IMG/VR virus record: IMGVR_UViG_3300047562_001971
Span: 1 to 44,956 of that record
Length of the DNA stretch: 44,956 bases
Strand: one strand, 5' to 3'
Origin: a virus
The notes under the pieces were generated by a model. It was not told where the DNA came from. It did not search any database and worked only from the letters and a program-made list of their open reading frames with translations. Each line of letters starts with the position of its first letter. Position 1 is the stretch's first letter. The position numbers and the translations under genes are program-made. This document shows positions 1,363 through 16,438 of this stretch, in pieces.

Positions 1363-1533
1363 CTATTCTAATTCCCACACTCTTACTTGAAAAGAACAGG
1401 GGTCTCCGCCTTCGTTCCACTCATATTCTTCTTCTGGAAGCATAGGTGGTCCGTCATGTGTATTGCAAAAAACATCTGATATCCAGCCTTTGTCATAACC
1501 AAATTTAATCCAATCATCAAAGTTTAGATCCAT
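1363..1533 (-). CDS. Small acidic hypothetical protein (56 aa)
   Basis: An ATG at 1531-1533 opens a 56-codon frame starting MDLNFDDWIKFGYDKGW and ending FQVRVWELE. It overlaps the end of the thioredoxin gene by about 10 nt, the tight packing seen across this phage. A GGAGGAG stretch lies 10-17 nt upstream. It is rich in Asp, Glu and Trp, with two Cys. I recognise no domain. Confidence 0.65.
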   Translation of the reverse strand: MDLNFDDWIKFGYDKGWISDVFCNTHDGPPMLPEEEYEWNEGGDPCSFQVRVWELE

Positions 1534-1826
1534 TCTTTAATCTCCTCCATCATAATATGTTTAGGCTTGGCACCAATAATTTTTTTTACTGGCTTTCCGT
1601 CTTTAAACAATATGGTGGTAGGGATACTTGTGACATGATGTTCGACAGACTTAATAAGTTCATTGTCGACATTCAATTTTCCCAACCATATTCCAGTTTC
1701 TTGAGAAACTTCTTCAATGATTGGAGAAAACATTTTACATGGCCTACACCATTCGGCCCAAAAATCTATCATTATCAACTTATGTGTTGCTATAATGTCA
1801 TCAAAATTATCATCTGTTACAATCAT
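1524..1826 (-). CDS. trxA: Thioredoxin
   Basis: This is a 100-residue single-domain thioredoxin, a cytoplasmic dithiol-disulfide reductase. The active site FWAEWCRPCK places the redox cysteines at 27 and 30, with the buried Asp equivalent at 21. SIPTT supplies the cis-Pro at 69, and TILFKDGKPV is the typical central strand. The second active-site residue is Arg instead of the common Gly (WCGPC). It overlaps the upstream dimer-glycosylase gene by 4 nt. It could reduce the phage GPx-like protein or a host ribonucleotide reductase, or serve as a polymerase factor as in T7. Host thioredoxin reductase would be required. Confidence 0.93.
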   Translation of the reverse strand: MIVTDDNFDDIIATHKLIMIDFWAEWCRPCKMFSPIIEEVSQETGIWLGKLNVDNELIKSVEHHVTSIPTTILFKDGKPVKKIIGAKPKHIMMEEIKEWI

Positions 1827-5212: not shown

Positions 5213-5513
5213 CAGGAACCCCCTCAAGTTCGCATCTTACACCGTATGATTCAATCATCTTTTTTACCTTCATAACATAATCTATAACTTCTTCTTTTTT
5301 ACTTCCAGTAAACTGTATAAAGTTATCCTCATATAATCTTAAGGCGAGAAAATCTGGATATTTAACTACATCCATCATGAGAAGCAGTGGCTTCTTTATT
5401 TCTCTAAGTTTCTTTTTCATTTCTTCGTTGTAAAATACTGGCTTGTTAGGTTCACCAGTCCACAGGTTTACTCCATGTTTAAAATGACCTTTGTCATATA
5501 AATTAGAATTCAC
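5193..5513 (-). CDS. Hypothetical protein (106 aa)
   Basis: The sequence is an alpha/beta mixture with the segments KPLLLMMDVVKYPDFLALRL and IDYVMKVKKMIESYG. I recognise no catalytic motif. It overlaps the WhiB gene by 11 nt and the next gene by 20 nt, so it belongs to the operon started at 6095. Many small phage proteins beside WhiB regulators look like this. Confidence 0.62.
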   Translation of the reverse strand: MNSNLYDKGHFKHGVNLWTGEPNKPVFYNEEMKKKLREIKKPLLLMMDVVKYPDFLALRLYEDNFIQFTGSKKEEVIDYVMKVKKMIESYGVRCELEGVPGGKSIN

Positions 5514-5817
5514 TGTGCCTCTTTTTTAATTCTGCCCAAATTTGTTTAGTCTTATGAGAATTTCTCATTTTATCCAATGAACCAGAGCTCAAATATACTC
5601 CGCCCCAAACTCCGTACTCATTATTTTCTATTCCAGATTCATAACACATGTTGATCACTGGGCAAGACAAACATGCTTGATCTATATTTTTAGCTATATT
5701 AATATCTAGTTCATATTTATCAAAAAATAAATTAGTATCTATACCTCTACAGGCAGCTAGATGCCACCAGTTAATAGACTCTTCATCTGTATTTAAATTA
5801 TTTAAAATATTTGACAT
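5503..5817 (-). CDS. whiB: WhiB-family [4Fe-4S] transcription regulator
   Basis: The 104-residue protein has the four WhiB cysteines, Cys23 (AACRG), Cys49 and Cys52 (ACLSCP) and Cys58 (NMC), followed by the G[VI]WGG turn (GVWGGVYL, residues 69-76) that contacts the sigma factor. A basic C-terminal tail (RNSHKTKQIWAELKKR) would bind DNA. WhiB proteins are confined to Actinobacteria and their phages, sense oxygen, NO or redox state through the cluster, and bind sigma-A region 4. Phage copies can dominate the host WhiB2 and affect septation or superinfection. It sits 3' of a consensus promoter. Confidence 0.93.
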   Translation of the reverse strand: MSNILNNLNTDEESINWWHLAACRGIDTNLFFDKYELDINIAKNIDQACLSCPVINMCYESGIENNEYGVWGGVYLSSGSLDKMRNSHKTKQIWAELKKRHSEF

Positions 5818-6103: not shown

Positions 6104-6940
6104 TTATTTCCACTTAAACCCAAAGGCTGGGTTTAATTCTGAAATTCTATTTTCAGATAATTCTTTTATTAAATTTTTTGTATATGCGAGTTCTTCTTCA
6201 AATATCTTTGAGGACCTAGCAAAGTGCGAGAATCTTTTAAATTTTCTACCGTCCTGCTCATGTGATTCTTTAATTGTTTTTTCTGCATCATAATTTAATG
6301 CATTACAATGTAAATGTCTTACAAGGTATCCGTCTTTGTCAAAAAAATACTTTTCGTAGTTCCCACCCATATTTATTCCAGAATCTTTTTGGTTAAGCCA
6401 CCATGAATAATATTGATCTGTATCGGATTCGTAGTCATCGCCTTCAGTTTGTTTATGATATGAGTAAAGCCATGCAGCATGATTAGAAGCTTCAACATAA
6501 AGGTCATGTGGCTCCCCAAGGTCTTGGCCAACACCATTTTTCCCTGGGTGGGTGCTTACTTGAGCAATAACTTCAGCGTTAGGGTTAGAAGAAATCATTT
6601 CAGAATACTTAAACGTAGTTCCGTAAACATCCTCTCCATACTTTTGAGAGTCCATTCCGCATGTGATGCCCTCTGACCACTTGCCCTTAGTAATTCCAGG
6701 TCCGCAATAATCGTTAGTTGGTATGCCAACTACTTGAAATTTGTCTCCACCAAACTCATCTTGCAACCACTGTAAAACTTCTAACTGATTAGCGTTTCCG
6801 CAACCAACTGTTGTGTTTACAAGCATTATAGCCTTGCCTTTAAACTGCTGTAAAAAATTTGGGGTTCCGTCTGCGGCGTTTAAATCTATATCATAGATAG
6901 ATTTGATACCCGTCATTGCTTCCCAAGAAAACTCTTTCAT
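6104..6940 (-). CDS. Glutathione-peroxidase-like thiol peroxidase
   Basis: The 278-residue protein aligns by eye with the GPx fold. SIYDIDLNAADGTPNFLQQF is the first strand pair, LVNTTVGCGNANQLEVLQWL holds the peroxidatic Cys47, and VVGIPTNDYCG replaces the usual FPCNQFG. YFFDKDGYLVRHLHCN is the C-terminal strand pattern. The Gln and Trp of the classical tetrad are not conserved, so activity is uncertain. It is longer than normal (about 160-200), with an insert around residues 75-195 and a helical C-terminus. I chose the ATG at 6940, which has AAGGAGAG 9 nt upstream. An in-frame TTG at 6976 is the alternative. Family members mostly use thioredoxin. Confidence 0.75.
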   Translation of the reverse strand: MKEFSWEAMTGIKSIYDIDLNAADGTPNFLQQFKGKAIMLVNTTVGCGNANQLEVLQWLQDEFGGDKFQVVGIPTNDYCGPGITKGKWSEGITCGMDSQKYGEDVYGTTFKYSEMISSNPNAEVIAQVSTHPGKNGVGQDLGEPHDLYVEASNHAAWLYSYHKQTEGDDYESDTDQYYSWWLNQKDSGINMGGNYEKYFFDKDGYLVRHLHCNALNYDAEKTIKESHEQDGRKFKRFSHFARSSKIFEEELAYTKNLIKELSENRISELNPAFGFKWK

Positions 6941-7003
6941 ACTTTTACTCTCCTTAAAGGCTTCTACCTCTGCCAATACCTCTATTTTACAGTATATTTA
7001 TTT

Positions 7004-7886: not shown

Positions 7887-8270
7887 TTACTCTTTATCCC
7901 AATCTTCATCAATTTCTGTTTCTTCTGGCATTTCGTCATTTGGCTTTCCAGTTGGCTCTGGATTAGTTGGAGCTGGTACTGGAGCTTCTGGTGCCTCTGG
8001 CTCATCAAATTTAATCTGGCTTTCATTTCCGCCACTCTTGCCAATTAACAATCCCGCAAGGGTTCCTGTAATAAATGTTGCTACCGAACCTAAAACATTA
8101 AAGAACATCTTATCATTTTCAGACTGCTCTCCAATTGGCTGTGTAACAAAAATAAGAGCATAAAGTATGCCCATAGTTGTAAATAATAAAATAGTTCCAA
8201 GGATTAGACCAAGGGTGAATTTTAATCTTGCGTCTAAGTCCGATGGAGTTAATCGTGGTCTTTTGGCCAT
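7887..8270 (-). CDS. Two-helix membrane protein, holin candidate (127 aa)
   Basis: A basic N-terminus (MAKRPRLTPSDLDARLK) precedes transmembrane helices at about 17-42 and 56-77 (GSVATFITGTLAGLLIGK). A Pro/Glu/Asp-rich cytosolic tail ends EIDEDWDKE. The topology and position beside an endolysin fit a class II holin or antiholin. Its stop and the next start lie 4 nt apart. Confidence 0.65.
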   Translation of the reverse strand: MAKRPRLTPSDLDARLKFTLGLILGTILLFTTMGILYALIFVTQPIGEQSENDKMFFNVLGSVATFITGTLAGLLIGKSGGNESQIKFDEPEAPEAPVPAPTNPEPTGKPNDEMPEETEIDEDWDKE

Positions 8271-8491
8271 TACTCGTTACCGTTCTGTTGTATAGTTGGT
8301 GCTTCCCCCGTCTTGGGGTCGAATCCTAGTATATCTATTGTACACTGTCCCTCAACCTTACACAAGGGTGGGTTGCACTCTGGATTATCGAAATTGGCAG
8401 GGTCCTGACATGGATATCTGAAAACTCCATCATATCCACATCCTGACAGCATAAATAGCCCTGCAAGGGCAAGTCCAATTAGTCTTACCAT
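8270..8491 (-). CDS. Small Cys-rich lipoprotein (73 aa)
   Basis: A signal with lipobox FMLSGC (Cys18) predicts lipid attachment. The mature part begins GYDGVFRYPCQDPANFDNPE and has several Cys (PPLCKVEGQC) that may pair. I recall similar short lipoproteins with a CQDPANF-like motif in other aquatic phages. It may be exclusion-related or lysis-related. The -10 box TATAAT ends 7 nt before the ATG. Confidence 0.7.
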   Translation of the reverse strand: MVRLIGLALAGLFMLSGCGYDGVFRYPCQDPANFDNPECNPPLCKVEGQCTIDILGFDPKTGEAPTIQQNGNE

Positions 8492-8498
8492 ATTGGTA

Positions 8499-8504
8499 AT
8501 TATA
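8499..8504 (-). promoter_or_regulatory. -10 box before the lipoprotein gene
   Basis: TATAAT lies 7 nt upstream of the ATG at 8491, again in leaderless geometry. I see no convincing -35 at 16-18 nt. Confidence 0.45.
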
Positions 8505-8508
8505 TCAT

Positions 8509-8702
8509 TTATTCGTCTTTACGAAGAGGGATAGTTGCGAGCCAAATAATAGTTGCAGCTATTGTTGCCACCCCTACTACTTGCTGAGCTGTCCCTGTAA
8601 GGGTTAACCAAGCAATAAAAAAGCCCAATAGAGTCCAAACTTGAGCAATGCTTTCTTTAACTGCCTCCCAGAAATAGTTCAGGATAGCCTTAATTATTTT
8701 CA

Positions 8703-8703
<1 letters not shown>
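8509..8703 (-). CDS. Small hydrophobic protein, holin candidate (64 aa)
   Basis: An amphipathic N-terminal helix (MKIIKAILNYFWEAVKESIA) is followed by two hydrophobic segments (about 22-38 and 40-57) and a short charged end PLRKDE. Two short helices and a charged tail fit a class II holin. An AGGAGG site 5 nt upstream of the ATG overlaps the end of the PA14 gene. Confidence 0.68.
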
Positions 8704-10805
<2,102 letters not shown>

Positions 10806-11142: not shown

Positions 11143-11565
11143 TTATTTGATTTTAATTGCTTTTGGCTTTTTTTCTTCTGGGACGATTCTTTCAATATTA
11201 ATCTTAAGAATTCCATCGGCCAATTGTGCACTCTGCACCTCCATATATTCAGATAATGCAAATGTGCGAACAAATTTTCTTGCTGCAATACCTTTGTGTA
11301 GATAAGATTTTGGAGCCACAACTGACTCTTTTAATCCTTCTACAATTAAAGATCCATTATCAATGTGTATTGATAAATCATCTTTAGTAAATCCTGCAAC
11401 TGCGAGAGAAATCTCATAAGAATCTTCATCCACCTTTAATACATCATATGGCGGATAAGATTGATTAGTTGCTTCACGATATACATTATTAATACGCTCT
11501 AACTCTCTGTTAAAGCCAATAAAAAAAGGATCTTTAAAAAGATCCATGGCAAATTGTGTTACCAT
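11143..11565 (-). CDS. hsp20: Small heat-shock protein (Hsp20/alpha-crystallin)
   Basis: The 140-residue protein has the alpha-crystallin domain at about 38-130. YPPYDVLKVDEDSYEISLAVAGF opens it, LIVEGLKE is the central strand, the segment RKFVRTFAL follows, and GILKINIERIVPEEKKPKAIKIK ends it with an I-x-I-like tail. It acts as an ATP-independent holdase that binds unfolding proteins. It has its own promoter (TAGACA-N17-TATAAT), a 5' hairpin and a strong AAGGAGG site. Hsp20 genes occur in cyanophages and some other aquatic phages, where they may protect virion assembly. Confidence 0.92.
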   Translation of the reverse strand: MVTQFAMDLFKDPFFIGFNRELERINNVYREATNQSYPPYDVLKVDEDSYEISLAVAGFTKDDLSIHIDNGSLIVEGLKESVVAPKSYLHKGIAARKFVRTFALSEYMEVQSAQLADGILKINIERIVPEEKKPKAIKIK

Positions 11566-11649: not shown

Positions 11650-12321
11650 TTAATTAAATATTTTACTATATGTAGGAGCAATCTCAAGATAGTTTATATT
11701 ACATCTTTTAGGCATAGAAGAAATCCACAATATTGCACTTGATAAATCTTCAGACTCTAAAGCTACAGGCTTTATTTGGTCACTATGAGTGTTTATCGAA
11801 GCTGGGCAAATCTCCGTTACCTTTATCCCATAACCAGAATATTCAAGCCTGAATAACTCAGATAATCCACTAACAGCCTTTTTTGAATTACAGTAGCTAG
11901 CTTGTCCAATATACGGATATCTACCCGCAAATGATGTTATAAATATAACAGTAGAGTTTTCTGAATTCTCTAAGTTTTTAGTGAACATCCTAGTTAAATA
12001 CATTGGCCCACTTACATTCAAGGCATAAGCTAAGGTAAAGCTTTCTGGATCTGAATTCACTAAAGTTTTTGGATCTACCCCACCTGCAGCATTATTAACT
12101 AATAAATCTAAAGTTATATTCTTATACTTTTCATAAAAAAATTTTATTTGCTCAAAATTAGTTAGATCTAATTCTTCTATGCTGACATTTTCAGATTCTA
12201 AATCTTTTATGTTACTGATATTTCTTGATGTAGCAATAACCTTATATCCATTATCAACTAAATCAATTACTGTTTTTCTTCCGACACCATGTCGAGTTCC
12301 AGTTACTATTGCTGTTTTCAT
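11650..12321 (-). CDS. Short-chain dehydrogenase/reductase (SDR)
   Basis: The 223-residue Rossmann-fold oxidoreductase has the classical SDR motifs: TGTRHGVG (cofactor glycine motif), DLTNF (adenine-ring contact), NNAAGG (central strand), Ser in FITSFAG, and YCNSKKAV (YxxxK catalytic pair). The Arg after TGT and the ATSRN segment suggest NADP(H). Substrate cannot be told. I start it at MKTAIVTG, preceded by AAAGGAGATAAA. The longer in-frame start would fall within the tRNA 3' end. Its ribosome site begins right after the upstream tRNA, so tRNA processing would leave a leader of about 13 nt. Confidence 0.88.
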   Translation of the reverse strand: MKTAIVTGTRHGVGRKTVIDLVDNGYKVIATSRNISNIKDLESENVSIEELDLTNFEQIKFFYEKYKNITLDLLVNNAAGGVDPKTLVNSDPESFTLAYALNVSGPMYLTRMFTKNLENSENSTVIFITSFAGRYPYIGQASYCNSKKAVSGLSELFRLEYSGYGIKVTEICPASINTHSDQIKPVALESEDLSSAILWISSMPKRCNINYLEIAPTYSKIFN

Positions 12322-12334
12322 TTTATCTCCTTTG

Positions 12335-12407
12335 TGCCCCAAGTTGGGATCGAACCAACGCTTGTACGATTTTAAGTCGCATGCCTCTACCGCTGGGCTA
12401 TAGGGGC
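12335..12407 (-). tRNA. tRNA with anticodon UAA (Leu codon UUA), short variable loop
   Basis: The 73-nt cloverleaf has acceptor GCCCCTA/TTGGGGC (one U-U mismatch at 6-67), T arm GTTGG-TTCGATC-CCAAC, anticodon stem TGCGA/TCGTA and loop CTTAAAA. Anticodon UAA reads the codon UUA (Leu). The variable loop is only 5 nt (CAAGC), whereas normal bacterial tRNA-Leu is class II with a long variable arm. A73 fits Leu. CCA is not encoded. It lies 3 nt from the tRNA-Asp. Confidence 0.85.
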
Positions 12408-12410
12408 TTG

Positions 12411-12484
12411 CGATCCGTATCGGACTTGAACCGACGGCCTCTACCGTGACAGGGTAGCGCTCTAACCAACTGAGCTAACGGACC
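12411..12484 (-). tRNA. tRNA-Asp(GUC)
   Basis: The 74-nt cloverleaf has acceptor GGTCCGT/ACGGATC with one G-U pair, anticodon stem CTACC/GGTAG, loop CTGTCAC (anticodon GUC), T arm GTCGG-TTCAAGT-CCGAT, and G73, the expected Asp discriminator. It lies 6 nt downstream of ahpD. Confidence 0.94.
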
Positions 12485-12490
12485 ACTTAA

Positions 12491-13000
12491 CTAAGAATTT
12501 AATATCTTAGCTAATGCATTTATTGTTGCGGCAATTCTTCCAATATCTCTTAATTGCTCAACACTAAATCCTTCTTGTTTTAATGTTTCATAATGTGCTT
12601 TAACACAAAAATGACATTTGCCAATTATTGAAGAGGCTAATGAGTATGCTTCAAAATTAGCTTTTGTAGTTCCTCCATGAGAAGCAATTGCATTCATTCT
12701 TAATTGTGCAGGAAGACCTGAAAGATTTGGATCGTCCGCCATTTCAAGATATGGATACCACACATTATTTTGAGCCATTAGGGCGCCAGCTGTCATTGCT
12801 GCATTCTTTTCGACTTCGTTTGTAGAAGAAGCGGCAATAAACCCAATAAGCTTTCCATTTCCAGTAGCAAATGAGGCTGCCAAAGCTAGGTGGGTCGCTA
12901 GCTCTGGATCAACCGTACTACGATTAATGACAGCATCAAGGTTTAATTTTATATCTTTGGCATATTCTGGCAAAGATTCTTTTAGCTGTTCAACCCACAT
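12491..13000 (-). CDS. ahpD: Alkyl hydroperoxidase AhpD
   Basis: The 169-residue all-helical protein has the AhpD CxxC centre: Cys129 and Cys132 in IGKCHFCVKAHYE, with His136 and the upstream Glu117. In mycobacterial AhpD (about 175 residues, motif EX11CXHCX3H) a His sits just before the second Cys. Here Phe131 takes that place and His moves one residue earlier. AhpD reduces AhpC and itself takes electrons from lipoylated host proteins (dihydrolipoamide acyltransferase and Lpd in Mycobacterium). The gene overlaps ahpC by one base, so the two are coupled. Confidence 0.9.
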   Translation of the reverse strand: MWVEQLKESLPEYAKDIKLNLDAVINRSTVDPELATHLALAASFATGNGKLIGFIAASSTNEVEKNAAMTAGALMAQNNVWYPYLEMADDPNLSGLPAQLRMNAIASHGGTTKANFEAYSLASSIIGKCHFCVKAHYETLKQEGFSVEQLRDIGRIAATINALAKILNS

Positions 13001-13575
13001 TATAGAGTTTCTCCGCCTAGGCTTCTGTTACACGCACAAAGTTCTCCTGTTTGGAGAGCATCTAAAATGCGTAATGTTTCTTCTGGGCTTCTTCCAACAT
13101 TAAGGTTGTTTACTGTTACATGCTGAATAACATTATCTGGATCAACAATAAATGTCGCACGAAGAGCAACACCATCATTTGTAAGGATTCCAAGCTGTTC
13201 TGCTAGACCAGTATACGATTCATCATCAATTTCTGAATAACTCCATTCACGAATTTGATCTGCAAATGACCATGAATTTGTCTTTTTTAAATCTTCATGT
13301 GCGTTACGCCATGCAATTTTACAGAATTCATTGTCGGTTGATCCTGTAAGCAGTACTGCATCACGATCATTAAAATCATTTACAAGCTTGTCATATGCAA
13401 CAATTTCTGTTGGGCAAACAAAAGTAAAATCTTTTGGATAAAAAACAATTACCTTCCATTTTCCTGGAAAAGATTTTTCATTTAATACTTCAAAAACATC
13501 GTCAGAGGCATCTAGTCTTCCTGGCTTTACGCCAACAATTCTAAATGGACTTAGTTTATTTCCTACTGTTTTCAT
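13000..13575 (-). CDS. ahpC: Peroxiredoxin AhpC (mycobacterial type)
   Basis: The 191-residue typical two-Cys peroxiredoxin has peroxidatic Cys54 in FYPKDFTFVCPTE. The C-terminal resolving pair is Cys180 and Cys182 in GELCACN, the three-Cys arrangement known from Mycobacterium AhpC. SSDNEFCK-like STDNEFCKIAWR and GVALRATFIVD are further family segments. It detoxifies peroxides and peroxynitrite in the cytoplasm, reduced by AhpD. The ribosome site AGGAG precedes the ATG. An upstream tRNA pair and promoter suggest one tRNA-ahpC-ahpD-tRNA-SDR transcript. Confidence 0.95.
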   Translation of the reverse strand: MKTVGNKLSPFRIVGVKPGRLDASDDVFEVLNEKSFPGKWKVIVFYPKDFTFVCPTEIVAYDKLVNDFNDRDAVLLTGSTDNEFCKIAWRNAHEDLKKTNSWSFADQIREWSYSEIDDESYTGLAEQLGILTNDGVALRATFIVDPDNVIQHVTVNNLNVGRSPEETLRILDALQTGELCACNRSLGGETL

Positions 13576-13608
13576 TTATCTCCTATATATAGTTTGGGAT
13601 TGTTCCCG

Positions 13609-13681
13609 CTGGACCACCAGGGCTCGAACCTGGGACATTAGAGTTAACAGCTCTACGCTCTGCCAGCTGAGCTATGGTCCA
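13609..13681 (-). tRNA. tRNA-Asn(GUU)
   Basis: The 73-nt cloverleaf has acceptor TGGACCA/TGGTCCA, anticodon stem TAGAG/CTCTA, loop CTGTTAA (anticodon GUU), T arm CCAGG-TTCGAGC-CCTGG and G73. U1-A72 is characteristic of bacterial tRNA-Asn. CCA is not encoded. It lies 5 nt from tRNA-Arg and upstream of ahpC. Confidence 0.95.
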
Positions 13682-13686
13682 CTGTG

Positions 13687-13759
13687 CGCCCCTGAAAGGA
13701 ATCGAACCTCTGACGCAGGCCTTAGAAGAGCCTCGCTCTATCCGCTGAGCTACAAGGGC
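13687..13759 (-). tRNA. tRNA-Arg(UCU)
   Basis: The 73-nt cloverleaf has acceptor GCCCTTG/CAGGGGC (one G-U), anticodon stem AGGCT/GGCCT, loop CTTCTAA (anticodon UCU, codons AGA/AGG) and T arm AGAGG-TTCGATT-CCTTT. AGA is frequent in the AT-rich phage genes and rarer in most actinobacteria, which would explain its presence. It sits 5 nt after a TATAAT box. Confidence 0.95.
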
Positions 13760-13764
13760 TTATA

Positions 13765-13794
13765 ATTATATCTAATTTAATTCGAATCCGTCAA
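13765..13794 (-). promoter_or_regulatory. Promoter of the tRNA-Arg/tRNA-Asn/ahpCD unit
   Basis: TTGACG (13789-13794), N18 and TATAAT (13765-13770) lie upstream of tRNA-Arg with 5 nt between the -10 and tRNA base 1, so transcription starts about at the mature 5' end. The -35 overlaps the end of the upstream gene. Confidence 0.75.
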
Positions 13795-14107: not shown

Positions 14108-14120
14108 CTTATCTCCTTTG

Positions 14121-14194
14121 TGCACCAGGTAGGACTTGAACCTACGACTACCCGATTATGAGTCGGGGGCTCTAACCAACTAAGCTACTGGTGC
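14121..14194 (-). tRNA. tRNA with anticodon CAU (Met, or lysidine-type Ile)
   Basis: The 74-nt cloverleaf has acceptor GCACCAG/CTGGTGC, anticodon stem CCCGA/TCGGG, loop CTCATAA (CAU), T arm GTAGG-TTCAAGT-CCTAC and A73. The three G-C pairs of an initiator stem are absent, so it is elongator Met or Ile2 (TilS-modified, codon AUA). The stretch GACTCATAATCG resembles Escherichia tRNA-Ile2. AUA is common in these genes. Confidence 0.92.
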
Positions 14195-14204
14195 TTAGTT
14201 GATA

Positions 14205-14234
14205 ATTATATATTTGAACTATTGGTATTGTCAA
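14205..14234 (-). promoter_or_regulatory. Consensus promoter of the tRNA(CAU) unit
   Basis: TTGACA (14229-14234), N18 and TATAAT (14205-14210) match consensus in all 12 positions. The gap to tRNA base 1 is 10 nt. The promoter lies inside the 3' end of the zinc-protein gene. Confidence 0.78.
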
Positions 14235-14454
14235 TAGAAGACTCCACTATGCCTTGTACATAATCTGAAAAATGTTTTCTAACACTTCCTGGAGGTCTTT
14301 TACCCAATTCATTCCATATTCTTTTATATTCAATTATGTTGTCAAATGTGGTGGGGCAGACCTTAATTCCATTAAACTCTTTTAGTCTAACTGGAAGCGG
14401 TACATGTTTTCCACAACATTTGCATTCTTTTGCTTTATCTTGATATATGCTCAT
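14206..14454 (-). CDS. Zinc-binding protein downstream of TerL (82 aa)
   Basis: AKECKCCGKHVPLPVRLKEF followed by IKVCPTTFDNII shows Cys residues suited to a zinc site and a helical middle (KRIWNELGKRPPGSVRKHF). It overlaps the terminase stop by 4 nt. Similar small zinc proteins lie by actinophage terminases. A role in packaging is a guess. Confidence 0.68.
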   Translation of the reverse strand: MSIYQDKAKECKCCGKHVPLPVRLKEFNGIKVCPTTFDNIIEYKRIWNELGKRPPGSVRKHFSDYVQGIVESSIDNTNSSNI

Positions 14455-16241
14455 ATTATTTCCATTCCGTCTAGTGCTTCCGCCAAACTTTTAGGCATCG
14501 CTGATGGAGCCTTAATTAAATTGTGACTTTCTTGCTGAGATTGTTGTTTTTCCTGCTTTTTAATTGAGCTATATGTATGAACTTCTATTGCTCCAAAATC
14601 TGGTCTGGTTAAACTTATAGCATTAAATATTGACCCGCATACGGCATCAGCTAAGTCTTTAGAACCTTTTCTTGGGTGATCTACTTTATCCCTTATAATC
14701 CTAAGCTCTAATAATTCATCTATAAGTAATTTAATATGTGGTCCAGACAACCTTTCTTCTAAAACTACCATAGCCATATCGTCATAATGCTTTTTTGCGA
14801 CAGACAATGTTTCTGTATTAATTCCGTATTGTCTTAATTGCTGCATCATATCATGAGAATTCCATCTGTCAAAAGTACACGTCCTTATGTTAAATCCTCT
14901 AGACCTTAAAGATAATATATAGTCTTTTACTTCAGTAAAGTCTACAGATTTATCTGAAGTAGGAGTCCAATATCTTACCGCATCCACTTCAATTATTGGG
15001 GCTGGCTGGGAATAATTATCTGTAACTTTAACATTTACCCACTTATTTATATGAGACATAGCTACTGCACAATGGTCATGTTTTTGCGCTAAGTCTACGT
15101 GTATAAAATATTCTTTATCTTCAATTGGTATAAACCATTCTTCAAATCTTCCAAATTGATCCACGCCTATTGCCATATTACTAAAAGCTTTTTCTATCTT
15201 TTCACGAGATTTAAAAAAGGCATCAATTGCTTCTGGAGGCATACAAGCAAACCTTCCTAGCGCATCTACTGTATCTCGATAGAAAGCAATTTTAAAATCA
15301 TCAATACTTCTAGTAGGATTCACTTCCCAAGTTGGTCTTTTAATGGCATAAACTTTTGGATATCTATACGAAATAATATGATCCTCATCCCAATAAACTT
15401 CAAACTCGTTGCCATCTGTGTTGTCTGGTAAATCTGGGTCTACCTTAAATTTATGAGATCTTTGTATTACTTCTTTTTCAGCCACAATCTCATCATACCT
15501 TTGTTGGATATAGTCCTGCTTAAATCTAGGGAATGAAAGTAATATTACTTTCCCATAGTCTGGAAAACGAGAATCAACAGAAGCTCTATACATTTCATAG
15601 ATACCGCTTGCAGTTTTTGCTTGGTCATGACCTGTTGTGCTTTCTAATGCAAAACCAGAGATTTCGTCTAGCACTGCAACCAGTACGTTATATCCTTCAA
15701 ATGCTTCTCTTTCTGAGTGTCCAGAATAAACTGTTACATTTTTATTAAATTTAATTTCAGATGCTTTCTCAAAATACTTTCCAATAAACCATGGCGACCC
15801 AACAATTCTATTTCTAAAACCTTTAAAGAAAACATTGTTTGCTTGCTGTGCGTTGATAGCAATATTAATAATATCTATTGAATCTCCAGGAGGTTTGCCA
15901 TAATATGTAGCTGGATCTTTAAGGCACAATAGGAGATAAACTATATATGCTACTGATATTGTTGAGCAGTAGTCTTTTCCACTACCTTTACCTAACTGCG
16001 CTACTACTTCGTTACAGGTTTGCTTGTAACGATCTTCGCCTTCTCTTTCTCCAAATAATTTGATAAGAGTGGATTGTTTATAGATTTGTGAGCTTTTTTC
16101 GATAAGCGTATATTGGTACTCCGAAAGTGGGGGTAATCCGAGATACTCTTTTCCTGTAACAAATGTTCTGAGATCGACTGGTCTTTCATCAAACTCCTCT
16201 CCATCTAATATATCAATGAGGTCATTAAAATTTAATTCCAT
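14451..16241 (-). CDS. terL: Terminase large subunit
   Basis: The protein (596 residues from the coupled ATG at 16241; a frame from 16256 adds five residues) has ATPase Walker A AQLGKGSGKD (81-90) and Walker B LVAVLDEISG (187-196). A downstream RNase-H-like nuclease has IHVDLAQKHDH, the segment RTCTFDRWNSHDM, and DLADAVCGSIFNA. It packages the genome into proheads through the portal and cuts the DNA. The ATG overlaps the preceding stop (TAATG). The tail ends KAPSAMPKSLAEALDGMEII. Confidence 0.92.
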   Translation of the reverse strand: MELNFNDLIDILDGEEFDERPVDLRTFVTGKEYLGLPPLSEYQYTLIEKSSQIYKQSTLIKLFGEREGEDRYKQTCNEVVAQLGKGSGKDYCSTISVAYIVYLLLCLKDPATYYGKPPGDSIDIINIAINAQQANNVFFKGFRNRIVGSPWFIGKYFEKASEIKFNKNVTVYSGHSEREAFEGYNVLVAVLDEISGFALESTTGHDQAKTASGIYEMYRASVDSRFPDYGKVILLSFPRFKQDYIQQRYDEIVAEKEVIQRSHKFKVDPDLPDNTDGNEFEVYWDEDHIISYRYPKVYAIKRPTWEVNPTRSIDDFKIAFYRDTVDALGRFACMPPEAIDAFFKSREKIEKAFSNMAIGVDQFGRFEEWFIPIEDKEYFIHVDLAQKHDHCAVAMSHINKWVNVKVTDNYSQPAPIIEVDAVRYWTPTSDKSVDFTEVKDYILSLRSRGFNIRTCTFDRWNSHDMMQQLRQYGINTETLSVAKKHYDDMAMVVLEERLSGPHIKLLIDELLELRIIRDKVDHPRKGSKDLADAVCGSIFNAISLTRPDFGAIEVHTYSSIKKQEKQQSQQESHNLIKAPSAMPKSLAEALDGMEII

Positions 16242-16438
16242 TAAATTGACCACCATCCTCTAATAGTGCCACCTTCTACAGGGCAAATCCACTGAAGGTG
16301 TTTACCGCTTTCATAATATTCTTTAAACAATTTACTGTCTAATTCTCTGTCTGGCTCATGCGTATCTTTTCCGCAATCTGGACAAATATAGGAATAAACA
16401 TATTCATACACATGTCTACAATGCTTCTTGTTCGTCAT
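16241..16438 (-). CDS. Small zinc-finger protein (65 aa) between terminase genes
   Basis: A YSYICPDCGKDTHEPDRE knuckle plus a C-terminal WICPVEGG Cys suggest a zinc fold. The Cys-x2-Cys plus His content is typical of small phage zinc proteins. It overlaps the small terminase by about 23 nt and terL by one base. Confidence 0.65.
   Translation of the reverse strand: MTNKKHCRHVYEYVYSYICPDCGKDTHEPDRELDSKLFKEYYESGKHLQWICPVEGGTIRGWWSI

Follow-up and report, generated by a model that had tools for sequence, protein, structure and literature searches.

In Mycobacterium tuberculosis, AhpC and AhpD constitute a biochemically defined peroxidase linked to Lpd and DlaT; mycobacterial AhpC is also reduced by thioredoxin. 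An AhpD-type reductase of the actinobacterium Corynebacterium glutamicum prefers Lpd/SucB/NADH over TrxR or mycothiol by orders of magnitude (PMC10460364). Defense against reactive oxygen species (ROS) mediated by phages has already been proposed, and the main text of Kavagutti et al. 2019 (PMC6802176) assigns it to ferritin, superoxide dismutase, glutathione peroxidase, thioredoxin, and glutaredoxin. Phage NCTC 12673 plates at only 3.7% on a Campylobacter ahpC mutant and poorly on a katA mutant too (PMC8540345). Do phages also carry a two-gene peroxidase of the AhpC/AhpD kind? The window, by which we mean the whole stretch of 44,956 nucleotides analyzed here, is an IMG/VR virus record (a 45 kb fragment of 36% GC) in which an initial annotation had noted an ahpC-ahpD pair and taken it to be genuinely phage-borne. 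This proved correct. Relatives of AhpD and AhpC are found on at least 593 and at least 597 IMG/VR contigs, respectively, and both proteins are conserved and under purifying selection, as judged from median dN/dS values of 0.073 for AhpC and 0.058 for AhpD. We consider it fairly likely that the two genes form a working cassette for peroxide detoxification, which a large freshwater actinophage carries as cargo among its tRNA genes and which is powered by the host and was acquired from a Burkholderiales-type source.

The pair and its setting

An array of phage tRNA genes encloses the pair, and the large terminase gene lies 0.9 kb upstream of it (Table 1). As the initial annotation had described, they are coupled by one base, common to the ahpC stop (TAA) and the ahpD start (ATG) in TAATG, and they are framed by tRNA genes, the nearest of which ARAGORN places 33 bp from ahpC on the upstream side and 6 bp from ahpD on the downstream side. 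Both open reading frames are intact, and a clear ribosome-binding site, AGGAGATAAATG, stands ahead of ahpC. Host-chromosomal flanks, which had been named as evidence against a phage gene pair, were looked for and not found; the flanks consist of genes for terminase, a DnaE-type DNA polymerase, DnaB helicase, primase, and tape-measure and tail proteins, and the window codes in addition for a single-strand binding protein, a Cas4-like nuclease, a RecA/UvsX-type recombinase, and an endolysin.

Table 1. Features of the ahpC-ahpD locus and related genes, in positions of the window
Feature	Position	Strand	Remarks
Thioredoxin (PF00085)	1524..1826	-	Possible alternative electron donor to AhpC
WhiB-family regulator	5503..5817	-	Marker of actinobacterial hosts
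Glutathione-peroxidase-like protein (PF00255)	6104..6976	-	290 aa; second thiol-peroxidase candidate
Hsp20 small heat-shock protein	11143..11565	-	Frequent neighbor of the pair
Short-chain dehydrogenase	11650..12324	-	First gene beyond ahpCD and its flanking tRNAs on the downstream side
tRNA-Leu(TAA)	12334..12407	-	ARAGORN; downstream of ahpD
tRNA-Asp(GTC)	12410..12484	-	ARAGORN; downstream of ahpD
AhpD	12491..13000	-	169 aa; CxxC disulfide reductase, putative adaptor re-reducing AhpC
AhpC	13000..13575	-	191 aa; typical 2-Cys peroxiredoxin
tRNA-Asn(GTT)	13608..13681	-	ARAGORN; upstream of ahpC
tRNA-Arg(TCT)	13686..13759	-	ARAGORN; upstream of ahpC
Promoter-like TTGACG-18-TATAAT	13765..13794	-	11/12 consensus bases; just upstream of tRNA-Arg
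tRNA-Met(CAT)	14120..14194	-	ARAGORN; same array as the tRNAs flanking ahpCD
Large terminase subunit (TerL)	14451..16256	-	62.6% identity over full length to Streptomyces phage Gilson

Judged on TerL, WhiB, and the local gene order of the 45 kb fragment, the window is predicted to be part of a large Stanwilliamsviridae-like actinophage. WhiB is encoded in 23 of the 30 long records that carry the pair, including all nine of 96 to 120 kb; since the phage encodes this regulator, its host is probably an actinobacterium, and the 36% GC together with WhiB would fit a low-GC one. Likely hosts include the acI Nanopelagicales, an order reported to be devoid of CRISPR-cas (PMC10202952) and to possess peroxiredoxins of its own (PMC7527133).

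How might the cassette be transcribed? The promoter-like sequence upstream of tRNA-Arg outscores all 20 shuffles of the same stretch, and it could drive tRNA-Arg, tRNA-Asn, ahpC, ahpD, tRNA-Asp, and tRNA-Leu jointly, although we regard this as suggestive only. Some relatives have promoter-like sites of 11 to 12 matches out of 12 at 57 to 82 bp upstream of ahpC; over 68 loci, conservation of a promoter upstream of ahpC is not significant overall, given that 37% of shuffles score as high as the real sequences. A perfect promoter-like TTGACA-18-TATAAT is present at 14205 to 14234, just upstream of tRNA-Met, which suggests that the tRNA array may be served by host-sigma-type promoters.

Two further proteins of the window deserve description. 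The glutathione-peroxidase-like protein, found in the window and three relatives, continues for a long stretch past its glutathione-peroxidase match; G011 encodes a similarly long form, while G003 and G032 have ordinary short forms. A 700-aa protein (8703 to 10805) combines a weak PA14 match with a long tract of proline/glutamate-rich repeats and is present in 44 of the fetched viral loci as well.

Catalytic site and source of electrons

Searches of Pfam, NCBIfam, and the PDB agree on the family of each protein. AhpC matches the Pfam family AhpC-TSA (E=2e-20) and AhpD matches CMD (E=3e-10), and among solved structures the closest are those of M. tuberculosis AhpC (2bmx, E=5e-41) and AhpD (1gu9, E=2e-25). 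AlphaFold models lead to the same two proteins: those of AhpD have 1gu9 as their best PDB match (TM up to 0.86, probability 1.00), those of AhpC have M. tuberculosis AhpC (TM 0.74 to 0.83), and the AhpC model shows the peroxiredoxin fold against 2bmx (E=4e-18, TM 0.76/0.81). AhpC scores 99.7 bits against the NCBIfam equivalog cut-off of 272 bits for TIGR03137. Because we take that model to represent the AhpF-linked branch of AhpC, the window protein is not of the enteric type. AhpD likewise falls below the curated cut-off of TIGR00777 (118 versus 191.95 bits), but so does the AhpD of Undibacterium at 113.6 bits, indicating that this model is narrow.

The active-site residues listed in the initial annotation are all kept, and they are invariant over about 70 distinct full-length phage sequences per protein. 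In AhpC, the PxxxTxxC peroxidatic site (P47, T51, Cys54) is found in every aligned row, as are both resolving cysteines of the C-terminal Cys180-Ala-Cys182. In AhpD, Glu117, Cys129, Cys132, and His136, which make up the CxxC and the proton relay, are invariant in phages and Burkholderiales alike. Elsewhere in AhpC, a loop insertion at about residues 107 to 120 (window 13200 to 13260) is highly variable in length among phages, which suggests a fast-changing surface.

On this basis, Cys54 of AhpC would reduce hydrogen peroxide, organic peroxides, or peroxynitrite and then form a disulfide with the C-terminal cysteines, which Cys129 and Cys132 of AhpD would reduce in turn. AhpD itself would receive its electrons from NADH by way of the dihydrolipoamide dehydrogenase of the host and the lipoyl groups of its 2-oxoacid dehydrogenase complexes. 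The phage would thus contribute two small proteins only and borrow the remainder from its host. The likely benefit would be to sustain the infected cell and phage replication under peroxide stress in sunlit freshwater, where the catalase capacity of the hosts themselves may often be weak.

Where do the electrons come from? Neither a lipoyl domain nor a flavin disulfide reductase (Pyr_redox_2) was found in any of 15 phage records, nine of them of 96 to 120 kb, while the same families were detected in 14 of 14 control genomes. Phage-encoded electron donors of the Lpd, TrxR, or lipoyl type were therefore set aside, and the reducing power is expected to come from the host. The pair probably runs on the metabolic enzymes of the infected host and so shields the infection from peroxide. 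To this extent the proposal of the initial annotation, that AhpD needs lipoamide partners of the host, is plausible and finds indirect support; as an exclusive route it is less secure, given that thioredoxin is a competing candidate donor.

Thioredoxin, either that of the phage or that of the host, could with host thioredoxin reductase be the main reductant of AhpC, leaving AhpD as a secondary disulfide reductase for other targets such as oxidized host or phage proteins. A thioredoxin gene is present in 13 of the 15 records, namely the window and all 12 WhiB relatives searched, and it is this finding that makes the thioredoxin route a serious rival. Because the phage encodes thioredoxin and a glutathione-peroxidase-like protein, AhpD is not the sole possible reductant. 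We nevertheless judge this route to be unlikely as the main one. The T4-like phages L118 and L134 have AhpC and AhpD but no thioredoxin match, and ahpC is found next to ahpD in nearly every case, an arrangement suggesting that AhpD is the partner of AhpC. Moreover, the AhpD-type reductase of C. glutamicum draws electrons far better from Lpd/SucB than from TrxR (PMC10460364).

An improbable alternative is that the pair serves redox signaling or counter-defense instead of removing peroxide in bulk; it might, for instance, dampen an oxidative abortive response of the host or protect the Fe-S cluster of WhiB-type regulators. The frequent co-occurrence of WhiB and the presence of Hsp20 and glutathione-peroxidase-like genes near the pair would agree with such a role. 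However, the pair also resides in T4-like phages without WhiB (no WhiB was found in L118 or L134). Detoxification powered by the host remains the reading that we favor.

Distribution and ancestry

The pair is a recurrent but patchy trait. In 142 of the 146 fetched loci, ahpC and ahpD are on one strand; the spacing between them is mostly 2 to 8 nt by alignment, and tRNAs, Hsp20, or TerL are usually nearby. Among 45 TerL relatives with informative flanks, only 22 have AhpC within about 6 kb. AhpD was not found in 16 further records, most of them fragments, of which 15 are TerL relatives without AhpC nearby. L112, a 24.9 kb contig, has AhpC (8001 to 8570), and AhpD was not found anywhere in the record; it thus offers a ready-made case for asking whether a different reductant can serve AhpC. 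In L114 (8001 to 10426) and L119 (8001 to 9477), an open reading frame of about 131 aa sits between ahpC and ahpD; its product resembles an SGNH-type hydrolase and has a GDSIAVGT motif.

T4-like freshwater phages also carry the pair. L118, L134, L119, and L112 possess UvsX, DnaB-like helicase, PhoH, DNA ligase, or cytidyltransferase genes of the T4-like type, and the UvsX of L134 is nearest to those of Xanthomonas and Stenotrophomonas phages.

From which cellular lineage did the genes come? We scanned the genomes of 84,980 species, and 79 of the best 80 AhpD relatives belong to proteobacterial loci of the Burkholderiales type, nearly all adjoining ahpC. The window proteins are 64 to 72% (AhpC) and 50 to 57% (AhpD) identical to those of Burkholderiales. 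In maximum-likelihood trees, a branch with 100/100 support separates phages and Burkholderiales from the actinobacterial rows. The AhpC sequences of phages make up a single clade (100/99), while those of AhpD fall into one main group and a second lineage comprising L114 and L148. Cellular sampling covered two motif patterns, so that a closer source could lie elsewhere. From these sequence comparisons, we infer that a Burkholderiales-type operon, and not a mycobacterial-type host gene, was the source of the pair, and a route from betaproteobacteria to T4-like phages to actinophages is possible.

Descent from an actinobacterial, mycobacterial-type host operon is very unlikely. Mycobacterial proteins are indeed the best solved structures, though few structures of AhpD exist. 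Yet identity to Mycobacterium, Rhodococcus, and Tsukamurella is lower than to Burkholderiales (47 to 53% for AhpC and 34 to 45% for AhpD), no actinobacterial locus is among the best 80, and the 100/100 branch sets the actinobacterial rows apart, so that identities and trees contradict this origin. The "mycobacterial type" of the initial annotation thus holds for fold and mechanism, where the match is to mycobacterial AhpC and AhpD, whereas in sequence and in trees the pair groups with Burkholderiales operons.

The sole exception among the best 80, L148, is filed as a Bacteroidota bin (AhpC 74% identical over part of its length, AhpD 57%). A Bacteroidota origin was rejected because L148 looks like phage: it has seven tRNAs and phage-like open reading frames, and its AhpD pairs with that of phage L114. 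Its assignment to a Bacteroidota metagenome-assembled genome is probably a binning error.

The claim that no well-studied phage has a complete pair withstood a search of the GenBank phage collection, in which AhpD had no match and AhpC had just 17 distant ones, all below 60% identity and mostly from unannotated short or human-fecal records. Host contamination or an assembly chimera has practically no likelihood as the source of ahpCD, for although unannotated short fragments among those 17 "phage" matches indicate that such error probably does occur in databases, the pair recurs, with terminase on one side and tRNA genes on the other, in dozens of metagenome contigs assembled independently, contigs of 96 to 120 kb among them, and this rules both out.

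Significance and comparison with known systems

Why would a phage of freshwater actinobacteria keep a peroxidase? According to PMC7527133, citing Kim 2019, axenic cultures of Ca. Planktophila (acI) were in the end kept going through the addition of catalase, and in one Ca. Planktophila strain the product of katG was not a functional catalase. It is conceivable, and we offer it tentatively, that a widespread freshwater actinophage clade and T4-like phages took up a complete lipoate-linked peroxidase of the Burkholderiales type, tied to host 2-oxoacid dehydrogenases, which offsets the poor catalase of acI during infection. If true, this reading would concern the most abundant freshwater bacteria, and with acI as hosts it would connect peroxide and phage infection with the ecology of a lineage dominant in freshwater, in a way open to testing. 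The pair also suggests that phages have carried a two-gene enzyme system from one phylum to another. It is intact, occurs on hundreds of contigs, and lends itself to simple assays. Although ROS defense encoded by phages has been published, we found no report of AhpC/AhpD as auxiliary genes of phages in the literature searched, nor of a complete peroxidase-reductase module; we regard the pair as a widespread new enzyme module inside a known theme.

The closest cellular counterparts are the ahpC-ahpD operons of Burkholderiales (Cupriavidus, Caballeronia, Undibacterium), which share with the phages the gene order, the residues, and the C-terminal CxC. They differ in being cellular, in having a larger ahpC-ahpD gap in most cases, in lacking the AhpC loop insertion of the window, and in an AhpC tail that reads ELCPCNR where that of the phages is usually ELCACNR. 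M. tuberculosis AhpC and AhpD (2bmx, 1gu9) have the same folds, the same three-cysteine AhpC, and the same Glu/CxxC/His site in AhpD; they are about 42 to 47% and 38 to 42% identical to the phage proteins and are parted from them by a 100/100 branch.

Among phages, the closest known relatives are the Stanwilliamsviridae, represented by Streptomyces phage Gilson (128 kb) and its kin; the window is related to Gilson through TerL (Table 1), and its WhiB is 47 to 50% identical to those of Streptomyces phages of this kind. The order Cas4-like, RuvC-like, TerL, tRNA array is common to the window and Gilson, where an HNH endonuclease and small open reading frames take the place of ahpCD in the array. 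Since TerL and WhiB kinship and gene order are Gilson-like and the array is otherwise filled in Gilson, ahpCD appears to be cargo in an actinophage tRNA array. PrxU of Microcystis phage MaAM05, annotated in a phage and of the same superfamily as the window AhpC, is 33% identical, is annotated as another type of peroxiredoxin, and, like the GenBank phages as a whole, comes with no AhpD match. In idea and in habitat, the ROS-defense genes of freshwater phages, many of them actinophages, described by Kavagutti et al. 2019 (PMC6802176) are the nearest precedent; the main text of that study does not name AhpC or AhpD, and what the window adds to its repertoire is a two-gene peroxidase with a dedicated adaptor.
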